This document shows positions 48,294-51,392 of a stretch of DNA of 64,000 bases, piece by piece. Each line of letters begins with the position of its first letter. The first letter of the stretch is position 1. The DNA is from Curtobacterium flaccumfaciens UCD-AKU (GTDB lineage: Bacteria; Actinomycetota; Actinomycetes; Actinomycetales; Microbacteriaceae). The stretch lies in the NCBI RefSeq assembly GCF_000349565.1, contig NZ_KB714629.1, positions 36,076-100,075 of the forward strand. Direction: 5' to 3'. Position numbers and translations under genes: made by a program. A model generated the notes under the pieces. It made no database searches, had not been told where the DNA came from, and saw only the letters and a program-made list of their open reading frames with translations.

Positions 48294-49991
48294 ATGCACA
48301 CGCGAATGAACCACTGGTGGGACGGGATCTCCCTGCGCACCAAGATCACCGGGATCACGGTGCTCCTCGTCGCGCTCGGACTGCTCGTCGCCGGACTCGG
48401 CACGATGACGGTGCTGTCCACCTACCTCATGCAGCAGCTCGACAACACGGTCAAGCAGACGACCGAGCAGCTCGAGGGCCAGAACATCAGTGACGGCGAG
48501 CAGTACTGCAAGCTGTCCGTCGTGGTGTCGCAGAGCGCCTACGTCGCCGCGTACGACGCCGACGGCGACCGGATCTGCCAGACGAAGGCGTCGAGTCGGC
48601 CCGACGTCCGCGAGGCCACCCTGGTGCAGGCCGCGCAGTCGAACCAGCGCATCTCGCTGTACGACAGCCAGCACGACCACGAGTGGCGTGCCCAGATCAT
48701 CCCGGCGTCGCTGCAGAACCAGTCCGACGGCACCACCGAGACCGGCTACGTGCTCATCGCGGTCTCCAGTGCCGGCACCGACGAGACGATCGGCAAGTTC
48801 ACCGCGATCTTCCTCGGGTTCGGCGCCTCGGTCATCCTGCTCGGCGCCATGCTCACCCGGCTGCTCGTCACCGCGACCTTCGACCCGCTGCGCGACGTCG
48901 AGGACACCGCGGCCCGGTTCGCCGCCGGTGACTTCAACCAGCGCCTCGAAGCCGACACCCCGAACACCGAGGTCGGCCGGCTCAACCGCTCCCTCAACGT
49001 GATGCTCGAGCGGATCGACTCCGCGTTCGAGGACCGTGAGCGCACCATCGACCAGATGCGCCGGTTCGTCGGGGACGCCTCCCACGAGCTCCGCACCCCG
49101 CTGGTGTCCCTGCGCGGGTACGCCGAGCTGTACCGGATGGGTGCCCTCCGCAAGGAAGAAGACGTCGCCCAGGCGATGGAGCGCATCGAGAAGGAAGCGC
49201 AGCGGATGGGCCTGCTCGTGCAGGACCTGCTGCAGCTCGCCCGCATCGACGAGTCCAAGCCGCTCGAGCTCGGCCCCGTCGACCTCGTCGCCATCGCCCG
49301 CGACTCGGCGCTCGACACCATGGCCTCCAACCCCGACCGCGAGATCCAGGTCCTCGTCGAGGACTCCCTGACCGGCGAGAGCGTGCCGCAGGCCGTCCGT
49401 CCGTCGTCGTCCCCGTCGTCCGTCGTCTCTCCGGACACCGGCGAGGCACCGCCCGTGTCGCCGACCTCGGCGAACACCACGGGCCCGATCGCGTTCTCGC
49501 GCCAGACCATCGCGCGCCTCCGAGCCCGCCGCACGCGCGCGATGAACATCGACGCCGGCGCCACACCGACCGACGAGACCACGCCGCTGCCCACGGTCGT
49601 GCTGCCGAAGCGCCCGCCGATCGTCCTGGCAGAGGAGAACAAGATCCGCCAGATCGTCACGAACCTGATGGGCAACGCCATGCGGTTCACGGCGCACGAC
49701 GACCCGATCGAGATCGGCATCGGCGTGGACGACGAGCGCGGCATGGCGCACCTCGACGTGATCGACCATGGTGAGGGCATCCCGCCGCAGCTGCGCGAGA
49801 AGATCTTCCAGCGCTTCTGGCGTGCCGACACCTCACGCGCACGCGACACCGGTGGCTCGGGTCTCGGACTCGCCATCGTGTCCGGGATCGTCGCGGCGCA
49901 CCACGGCTCGGTCGAGGTCTTCGACACCGAGGGCGGCGGCGCGACCTTCCGCGTCTGGCTCCCCCTGCTCCCCCGCGACTTCGCCGCCTGA
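48294..49991 (+). CDS. Sensor histidine kinase with inserted linker
   Basis: A 565-residue membrane kinase. Two membrane helices (about 17-44 and 158-182) flank an extracytoplasmic sensor of about 110 residues with two Cys (EQYCKL, RICQTK). A HAMP domain, the His box VGDASHELRTPLVSLRGY (His about 265) and the ATPase domain (NLMGNAMRF, HGEGIPPQ, GGSGLGLAIV) follow. Between HisKA and ATPase lies a Ser/Pro/Thr-rich insert of about 85 residues (about 360-440) not usual in this family. It pairs with the upstream response regulator. Confidence 0.92.
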   Translation: MHTRMNHWWDGISLRTKITGITVLLVALGLLVAGLGTMTVLSTYLMQQLDNTVKQTTEQLEGQNISDGEQYCKLSVVVSQSAYVAAYDADGDRICQTKASSRPDVREATLVQAAQSNQRISLYDSQHDHEWRAQIIPASLQNQSDGTTETGYVLIAVSSAGTDETIGKFTAIFLGFGASVILLGAMLTRLLVTATFDPLRDVEDTAARFAAGDFNQRLEADTPNTEVGRLNRSLNVMLERIDSAFEDRERTIDQMRRFVGDASHELRTPLVSLRGYAELYRMGALRKEEDVAQAMERIEKEAQRMGLLVQDLLQLARIDESKPLELGPVDLVAIARDSALDTMASNPDREIQVLVEDSLTGESVPQAVRPSSSPSSVVSPDTGEAPPVSPTSANTTGPIAFSRQTIARLRARRTRAMNIDAGATPTDETTPLPTVVLPKRPPIVLAEENKIRQIVTNLMGNAMRFTAHDDPIEIGIGVDDERGMAHLDVIDHGEGIPPQLREKIFQRFWRADTSRARDTGGSGLGLAIVSGIVAAHHGSVEVFDTEGGGATFRVWLPLLPRDFAA

Positions 49992-50034: not shown

Positions 50035-50053
50035 GGTCACAACACCCCGTTCA
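50035..50053 (+). repeat. Left terminal inverted repeat of the DUF559 cassette
   Basis: GGTCACAACACCCCGTTCA; it matches the reverse complement of 51298-51316 at 17 of 19 positions and lies 44 bp after the kinase stop codon. Confidence 0.6.
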
Positions 50054-50065
50054 CGGCCGCCGAGT

Positions 50066-50144
50066 GGTCACGATCTGTCGTCTGCGCACTCGCTGACCGA
50101 CAGTTCGTGACCGACCGGCGCACAGCCGACGACATGTCGTGACC
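50066..50144. repeat. Left subterminal repeat cluster of the DUF559 cassette
   Basis: Three 15-bp motifs: GGTCACGATCTGTCG (+, 50066-50080), and on the minus strand GGTCACGAACTGTCG (50098-50112) and GGTCACGACATGTCG (50130-50144). The first two form a stem-loop with one mismatch. Confidence 0.7.
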
Positions 50145-50182
50145 GCCCGACGAAGTACTCGTCCGCGTGGCACATGCCGCTC

Positions 50183-51079
50183 TCACGCCGAGCGCCGACG
50201 GTTTCCGACCGCACGGACCTCGAACGCCTGCCGGAGCCGCTCGAACAACACTGCGGGCCGGTGGGCGTCCGACGCCGTTGCATGGATCACGAGCCAGTCG
50301 TTCACCACGAACCCGTTGTCCCGTCGTTGATCGTGTCGGAAGGTGTCACGCTCGCGGTGGTGATCGCCGTCGTACTCCAACGCGATGCCGAACTCCGGCC
50401 ACGCCATGTCGACGCGGCCGAGGAACCGTCCCGCACCGTCGTGCACGTCGACGTTCAGCTCCGGCTCGGGGAACCCCGCTTCGACCACTGCCAGACGGAG
50501 CCAGGTCTCCTGCGGCGACTCCGCCCCGGCCCGGACGAGTTCCAGCGCGCGCCGAGCAGCGAGCGCGAAGCGTGTGCCGGGACGGATCGCAGCACGGAGG
50601 TCGTCCGCAGTCGCGAGACCCGACACTCCGACGAGGTGGTCCCCGATCGCGACCAGGCCGTCACGGTCCACGACACCGGCGCACTCGAACCACATCTGCG
50701 CGGGCGAACTGACCCGGCGCTCGCGGTGTTCGACGACGGTCGGCCGACGGATGCGGTGCGCGATCACGTCCGGCCGACGCATCCGGACCCCGTCTCCCAC
50801 AGTGGAGACGTGCACGGTCCGGAGCGATTGCACCGACTGCGGCAGTGGCGCACCCCAGATCGCAGCGGCGGTCGTGTGACTGAAGAACTGGTCGGGACGC
50901 ATGACCAGGGCGACGGCGTCGATGAAGTCCACCGAGTCGATCGGAGCGCGGACACCGTGGACCGGGGCTGCCAGGTCGGCACGTCGGAGTCGTTCCGGAT
51001 GAATGCCACCACCCACGGCATCGGCCACGCGGAAGGTGGATCGGTCGAACGGAGCGGGGAGGCGACGGGCAGCTGGCAT
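50183..51079 (-). CDS. DUF559 (Vsr-like) endonuclease-domain protein with AbiEi-like N-terminus
   Basis: A 298-residue protein. The N-terminal 40 residues resemble the winged-helix start of AbiEi-type antitoxins (RLRRADLAAPVHGVRAP). A central domain follows, and the C-terminal DUF559 domain has the Vsr-like active-site pattern LGRVDMAWPEFGIALEYDGDHHR (Asp about 239, Glu about 249, His pair), so a DNA-nicking activity is plausible. The ATG at 51079 gives the common start. Repeats of one family flank it on both sides. Confidence 0.8.
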   Translation of the reverse strand: MPAARRLPAPFDRSTFRVADAVGGGIHPERLRRADLAAPVHGVRAPIDSVDFIDAVALVMRPDQFFSHTTAAAIWGAPLPQSVQSLRTVHVSTVGDGVRMRRPDVIAHRIRRPTVVEHRERRVSSPAQMWFECAGVVDRDGLVAIGDHLVGVSGLATADDLRAAIRPGTRFALAARRALELVRAGAESPQETWLRLAVVEAGFPEPELNVDVHDGAGRFLGRVDMAWPEFGIALEYDGDHHRERDTFRHDQRRDNGFVVNDWLVIHATASDAHRPAVLFERLRQAFEVRAVGNRRRSA

Positions 51080-51238
51080 GCCGTCATGGTCGCTGCAGGG
51101 CACGCGAGCCGACCACCTGCGCTCGGAACCTGTGGAGAACGAGGTGAGTCGGGCCTCCTGTGCGGGAGTGGTGAGGCGCGACACGAGCAAGCCGCATCCA
51201 CGAGCCGGTCATGACTCCCCGCTCCTGCGCCGCCGGAC

Positions 51239-51285
51239 GGTCACGAAGTGTCGACGGGAAGCGGCCAAACCGACGGTTCGTGACC
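51239..51285. repeat. Right subterminal repeat pair of the DUF559 cassette
   Basis: GGTCACGAAGTGTCG (+, 51239-51253) and, on the minus strand, GGTCACGAACCGTCG (51271-51285), again head-to-head around a 17-bp spacer. Confidence 0.7.
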
Positions 51286-51297
51286 GCGCCGCGAGCC

Positions 51298-51316
51298 TGA
51301 GCGGGGTGTCGTGACC
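51298..51316 (-). repeat. Right terminal inverted repeat of the DUF559 cassette
   Basis: Reverse complement GGTCACGACACCCCGCTCA, two differences from the left end. It stops 36 bp short of the groL terminator. The stretch 51080-51401 holds only these repeats and that terminator. Confidence 0.6.
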
Positions 51317-51351: not shown

Positions 51352-51392
51352 ACGGAAGGGCCCCACACGCGCAGCGTGCGGGGCCCTTCCGT
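51352..51392. terminator. groL terminator hairpin
   Basis: ACGGAAGGGCCCCACACG pairs with 51375-51392 with one mismatch, 10 bp beyond the groL stop codon. Confidence 0.75.

Follow-up and report, generated by a model that had tools for sequence, protein, structure and literature searches.

REP repeats are widespread in bacteria. According to the available part of one account, the enzyme linked to them is the RAYT transposase, whose gene is flanked by its own repeat type, and the repeats are arranged as extragenic inverted doublets of fixed spacing; in the REPIN/RAYT systems of Pseudomonas and other bacteria the repeats also form tandem clusters, and a genome may hold several families linked to different enzyme genes (PMC3116915). 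In the accessible portions of two further papers, the homing endonuclease I-Bth0305I reportedly dimerises on a target of nearly 60 bp (PMC3943268), and the type of nuclease domain found in the present work is known as the Vsr-type REase, the Vsr-REase domain of MTES_1575 (PF18741) (PMC3710099).

The locus described here, from the genome of Curtobacterium UCD-AKU (G000), probably belongs to a nuclease–repeat system that works like RAYT/REPIN with an unrelated enzyme. Set against the available part of PMC3116915, it resembles REPIN/RAYT in having an enzyme gene with its own flanking repeats, extragenic doublets, tandem clusters and several families. It differs in its enzyme, an AbiEi–Vsr nuclease here and a HUH tyrosine transposase there, and in that most compared positions are stable between related species while the half-site type changes in place. 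As the defining HUH transposase was not found (RAYT/Y1 transposase, PF01797, in 0 of 66 Curtobacterium genomes, the same search being positive in 5 of 14 control genomes), the system is not filed as a member of RAYT/REPIN. Searches of the open-access literature, outside which most subscription journals lie, listed no account of a Vsr-type nuclease that has dispersed repeats of its own. The layout, with repeats scattered through this genome and different ones in the same arrangement in many actinobacterial relatives, suggests a previously undescribed enzyme-linked repeat system with a non-homologous enzyme, a nuclease that may maintain repeats.

In the window, that is, the whole 64-kb stretch of DNA analysed, a single minus-strand gene (50183–51079) lies between a sensor kinase gene (plus strand, ending at 49991) and groL (minus strand, from 51402), both neighbours having been identified by eye from translations. 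The sequence-only reading had described an inverted-repeat cassette around this gene, and its measurements held: the outer end at 50035–50053 (plus strand, GGTCACAACACCCCGTTCA) and the reverse complement of that at 51298–51316 (minus strand, GGTCACGACACCCCGCTCA) are identical at 17 of 19 bases, and five inner motifs lie head-to-head between them, four of them exact copies of GGTCACGANNTGTCG (50066 +, 50098 −, 50130 − and 51239 +) and the fifth carrying a single change (51271 −). The head-to-head pairs are spaced by 32 bp. On the left, the inner motifs at 50066–50080 (+) and 50098–50112 (−) lie in a paired half-site unit of 24 + 17 + 24 bp (50057–50121), followed 32 bp past the pair by an extra half-site (50130–50144, −); on the right, those at 51239–51253 (+) and 51271–51285 (−, one change) lie in a second paired unit (51230–51294). 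The left outer end reads as a variant of the half-site, and some three turns of the helix separate it from the next motif. When flank-sized window pairs were slid over the 64 kb, 1 of 250 reached a match score of at least 18, and this was the nuclease locus itself (30.5). At two mismatches the inner motif was not above chance within the window (8 observed, 6.7 expected).

The gene more likely starts at the ATG at 51079 than at the TTG at 51190, giving a product of 298 aa: in a relative, L083, a stop codon immediately precedes the corresponding ATG. The stretch upstream (51080–51190, minus strand) is similar in orthologs, many of which read QEARxxxFST in frame, the frame being broken by the stop codon in L083; judged from the sequence, it is probably an untranslated leader or promoter region. 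The structure predicted for the protein (pLDDT 89.1, pTM 0.84) falls into two parts. Residues 7–183 (50531–51061, minus strand), presumed to bind DNA, resemble the AbiEi antitoxin 6y8q (Z 11.6, 170 residues aligned, rmsd 5.2), which was also the only Foldseek match below E 0.001 (E 2.2e-4). Residues 188–291 (50207–50518, minus strand) resemble the catalytic domain of I-Bth0305I (3r3p; Z 12.2, 96 aligned, rmsd 2.8; Foldseek E 0.079) and, in the same model, Vsr (1cw0; Z 10.0). On this predicted structure, the protein joins an AbiEi-like half to a nuclease of the Vsr/EDxHD, homing-endonuclease-like kind. The residues E191, D224, H241 and D250 are conserved together in 134 of 143 homologs, a count made without 11 loci judged to be duplicates from their equal match scores, the window's own gene (L166) and one locus with a mis-set start (L186); their order would fit the name EDxHD. 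The earlier recognition of a Vsr-like nuclease with an AbiEi-like N-terminus is seen in the predicted folds. As to its label DUF559, the homologs L041 (23.2 bits) and L084 (20.8 bits) pass the cut-off of that family (PF04480), and Pfam gave no match for the window protein even at E 10, DUF559 included. Homologs also give sub-threshold matches to the Vsr-REase model PF18741, that of L041 having E 3.9e-8. A sequence-profile search of solved structures returned nothing useful, and PADLOC gave the window protein only a weak ZorE match (E 0.039) and no AbiE.

Each half has a described counterpart from which the whole protein departs. With I-Bth0305I, as far as the available part of PMC3943268 goes, it shares the catalytic fold and the E/D/H/D residues, and the target of about 60 bp is close to the 65-bp repeat unit described below; unlike I-Bth0305I, it was not seen in an intron or intein, has many genomic sites and carries an AbiEi-like other half. 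With Vsr and MTES_1575 (PF18741), within the part of PMC3710099 available, it shares the nuclease fold and the sub-cut-off PF18741 matches of its homologs, whereas no mismatch-repair context was seen around it, an AbiEi-like half is fused to it and it is coupled to repeats. The N-terminal fold is that of the AbiEi antitoxin of type IV toxin–antitoxin systems; unlike in AbiE, a nuclease is fused at the C-terminus and no toxin gene is adjacent, the neighbours being the kinase and GroEL.

Genome-wide, the 15-bp core motif GGTCACGANNTGTCG occurs in G000 as 38 exact copies at 20 places, and the reversed pattern not at all. The full unit consists of two inverted 24-bp half-sites (CCGCCGAGTGGTCACGAANTGTCG) separated by a 17-bp spacer, about 65 bp in total; the 32-bp pairing of motifs emerged with no preset spacing, and 33 such units were collected. 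The outer end motif is present at 12 of the 19 other G000 repeat loci fetched (10 with CCCCG and 2 only with CGCCG), so the 'ends' of the cassette are ordinary repeat units. All 20 clusters are intergenic by home-made gene calls. Among the 19 with both neighbours called, one cluster lying at a contig end with no left gene, 12 are in convergent, 7 in tandem and none in divergent gaps, compared with 26 convergent and 29 divergent among all 102 gaps longer than 100 bp at these loci (cluster gaps included). Conservation between loci is 0.875 in the arms, 0.52 in the spacers and 0.34 at random, the units having been chosen by their arms. In one G000 cluster (L025:4845-5648) the repeat unit recurs in tandem every 174 bp or so, and in the sister genome G008 an array at the corresponding position (L206) has fewer strict motifs. 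Elsewhere (L216:19700-19860) an N run of the G000 assembly falls inside a repeat cluster, and the assembly may therefore under-count tandem units.

We consider it very likely that the nuclease recognises its cognate repeats; that it also drives their maintenance is an evenly balanced proposition. In the mechanism we propose, the AbiEi-like half would read its own half-site of about 24 bp, and the nuclease, probably as a dimer, would sit on two inverted half-sites 17 bp apart, the unit of about 65 bp. Its targets would be the units beside its own gene and those dispersed mostly at the 3' ends of genes. These units would be cut or nicked occasionally, and repair templated by other copies or by the opposing arm would keep them, multiply them in tandem and homogenise them. 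As in homing, the type of unit would then track whatever specificity the resident nuclease allele has.

The positions of the sites were compared between genomes. Of the 20 G000 clusters, 12 are matched by a cluster at the same position in G008 (21 of the 24 G008 clusters being used). Eleven further cluster comparisons gave seven shared sites (one of them cut by an assembly gap and one visible only at two mismatches), one operon-sized difference and three that could not be aligned. The operon-sized difference (L199:467-4107) is, by eye, a sugar ABC-transporter operon with a repeat unit at its end, present in G008 and absent at the G000 junction. None of the G000/G008 cluster and second-family comparisons made revealed a clean empty site or an excision. 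In the more distant G001, from which 19 clusters were fetched, five dispersed clusters and the gene's own share an intergenic interval with a G000 or G008 cluster, and these six bear mainly another motif class than G000 and G008; at one G000 site (L037) both motif classes are present.

A change of type in place was also seen in a second repeat family, that of the paralog L041 described below. Eight G000 sites of this family were compared with G008, giving four counterparts, one site with just a remnant in G008 and three unmapped sites. At two of the four shared sites both arms are of another type, while 8 and 10 bases of the 11-bp spacer are unchanged; at the third it is mainly the outer part that differs, and the fourth is nearly unchanged. 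The evidence for rewriting rests on these four sites. Against G007, G008 and G015, the second-paralog nuclease of G000 shows an unusually low identity of 74–77%, compared with 94–95% among those three genomes; the corresponding values for the group-A protein, the ortholog group of the window gene, are 85–87% and 90–92%, and the third paralog of G000 is 92–94% identical to those of the same three genomes. By its group-A protein, G000 lies somewhat apart from G007, G008 and G015 in general. The proposal that the AbiEi half alone sets specificity was unsupported: L041 and L138 are 66.7% identical over residues 1–180 and 84.3% thereafter, but the comparison of L041 with L127 and L118, which have the same motif type, tilts likewise.

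We tentatively raise the possibility, in our view a rather doubtful one, that the nuclease edits a genome-wide set of sites in place, foreign or imperfect half-sites being cut and converted to the cognate type by short-patch repair, for which a cognate copy or the other arm would be the template, with the spacer and surroundings left untouched. If this were true, scattered sites by the dozen would take on the type of a new nuclease allele, which would amount to homing of a recognition code and not of a gene.

The main rival to the nuclease-maintained reading is a fixed set of regulatory or structural sites that are never cut or copied, serving autoregulation and some function at the 3' ends of genes (in termination, at mRNA ends or in nucleoid structure), in which the specificity of the protein drifts and selection re-tunes the sites. 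The stability of position in the sister genome, and at some sites in G001, is what such a set would give, as are the wholly intergenic clusters with their preference for convergent gaps and the far better conservation of arms than of spacers, with the reservation that units were picked by their arms. The absence from divergent gaps, however, argues against promoter control, and a terminator and promoter scan returned nothing in the cassette, terminator-like sites included. Conservation of the catalytic residues in nearly all homologs, tandem arrays and strain-limited expansions also speak against sites that are only bound, and we regard this explanation as unlikely.

A nuclease homolog was found at E 1e-10 in all 66 Curtobacterium genomes searched. 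The orthologs of the window gene (group A) comprise 60 loci, 59 from these genomes and L080, of which 53 adjoin both groL and the kinase gene, five only one of them and two neither. The last two (L101 in G047 and L103 in G041) lie in the genomes richest in the GGTTCC repeat type. For the flank test, 126 loci were reduced to 112 by dropping 11 presumed duplicates with equal match scores and 3 with short flanks. A flank match score of at least 18 was reached by 47 of 57 group-A orthologs and by 4 of 1120 dinucleotide shuffles; for loci of the Curtobacterium set outside group A it was reached by 8 of 55, the other 47 falling below the threshold. At L058 and L112, at least, the group-A scores look like GC-rich runs. 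Flank repeats of group A vary between species yet agree from left to right, and their types include GGTCACGA..GTCG, GGTCGCACGA..GCCG, GGTTCC..AAT..CGGCATC and GATCGCACTTCGTG. Group-A upstream flanks paired with downstream flanks of other paralogs scored at least 16 in 8 of 342 pairs (maximum 26). Unrestricted cross-locus pairs scored at least 18 in 91 of 984; motif types are common to orthologs, so that a match between the flanks of two different loci is possible.

Across 60 genomes the flank type tends to agree with the dispersed type (Mann-Whitney p of 5e-8, 0.003 and 3e-6 for the first three types, uncorrected for relatedness). The dispersed family misfits the group-A flanks in several genomes, among them G054, G064, G013, G060, G030, G031, G003 and G055; at L047 (G054) and L104 (G064), the most abundant of the searched repeat types differs from the repeats at the group-A gene.

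The sequence-only reading had likened the cassette both to a transposon and to a REP system in which a nuclease acts on its own repeats. The second likeness is borne out in that many homologs are flanked by matching repeats, which are dispersed where this was searched. The first, in which the nuclease or a helper would move a self-mobile unit bounded by terminal inverted repeats, drew on the near-identical inverted ends, the subterminal repeats and the single gene inside, and we now judge it very unlikely: 53 of 60 orthologs keep their place between groL and the kinase gene while the flank repeats vary between species, the end motif recurs at dispersed sites that have no gene, and no clean empty site came to light in the comparisons made. 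Nor did the structure matches listed for the window protein include a transposase fold.

The sequence-only reading had also asked whether other DUF559 genes of the genome have the same flanks. These were not found at the two other paralogs compared (L041 and L042), but each bears repeats of its own, and the refutation foreseen there is only half borne out. The second G000 paralog (L041) has palindromes of the TCGAGTGAGCAGAAGACGACGGGT kind on both flanks, a motif with 24 exact copies in G000 and none of the reversed control; a related motif has at least 30 copies in each of G004, G005, G026, G027 and G039 and is missing, or nearly so, from most other genomes. The third paralog (L042) lies between CGAGCGGGCGAAA palindromes, those downstream being some 800 bp past the gene. 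G000 also contains a fourth, distant nuclease homolog (G000:C33:37512-38126, E 9.7e-19).

In a draw of genomes from the phylum, a homolog was found in at least 71 of 396. Thirty loci were fetched, and 28 remained after removal of the window's own gene (L166) and the locus with a mis-set start (L186). A repeat common to both flanks was present at 17 of the 28, compared with 1 of 73 control window pairs, the single control match (L181, 370) being an artefact of window overlap; the other 11 loci were under the threshold. These flank repeats are mostly palindromes and mostly specific to their locus, those of L177 and L184 being alike, and three of the 17 (L176, L190 and L194) have repeats with no clear palindromy. 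One of them, TTTGGACGNGATTCGGC, has 8 copies in G290 and none in seven other genomes, one from the same genus; another, ACCGACGYNWTGGTCGRTT, was counted 8 times in G139 and 3 times in G457, the copies at the flanks included, and not once in 12 others. Of four plasmid records matched by the protein search, three Arthrobacter replicons were examined and all three show the both-flank pattern. In its own 754-kb replicon one Arthrobacter palindrome occurs at 15 places, and the other plasmid records (72,556 searched) have none. Another is confined to a single strain, with 6 and 5 places in two of its replicons. Repeats thus differ between orthogroups and mostly also between distant loci.

A HUH/RAYT-like single-strand system, in which the substrate is a hairpin, an undetected RAYT moves the repeats and the nuclease is a mere neighbour, might be read from the REPIN-like inverted doublets, from a near-perfect palindrome at the Arthrobacter locus L246 and from the second family, whose arms covary (0.855 over 43 units taken from several genomes, compared with 0.690 when permuted; none of 5000 permutations reached the observed value). 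The family of the window has no such covariation (p 0.32, 33 units; 33 single-arm and 2 two-arm deviations), and the two families together do not decide between the hairpin and the duplex as sole substrate. The association with the nuclease, moreover, recurs across the phylum with different repeats, and no Y1 transposase turned up in a search that did find it in controls; we hold this explanation to be highly improbable. That palindromes simply gather in convergent gaps and flank the gene by accident, the nuclease gene itself sitting in such a gap, has a negligible chance of being right, as different homologs in distant genera have different repeats on both sides and dispersal is limited to a clade or strain.

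On the reading of a nuclease–repeat system akin to RAYT/REPIN, a nuclease unrelated to RAYT appears tied to a REP-like layout in many actinobacteria; in one of the genera concerned, Curtobacterium, the search gave no RAYT. How dispersed repeats and their enzyme stay matched thereby becomes testable, and the paralogs with different sites offer a ready-made specificity series for a little-studied nuclease fold.

A search of 50,697 phage and 72,556 plasmid records with the 131-base stretch that carries the left repeats gave no match at E 0.01, and these records therefore give no clue to a role in defence. Directly before the end of groL lies a strong GC-rich stem (51352–51392), distinct from the repeats. 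The only Rfam match at the locus falls on it, a sub-threshold hit to sbcD (21.7 bits, gathering threshold 40), and the terminator and promoter scan did not list it; it is probably the groL terminator.
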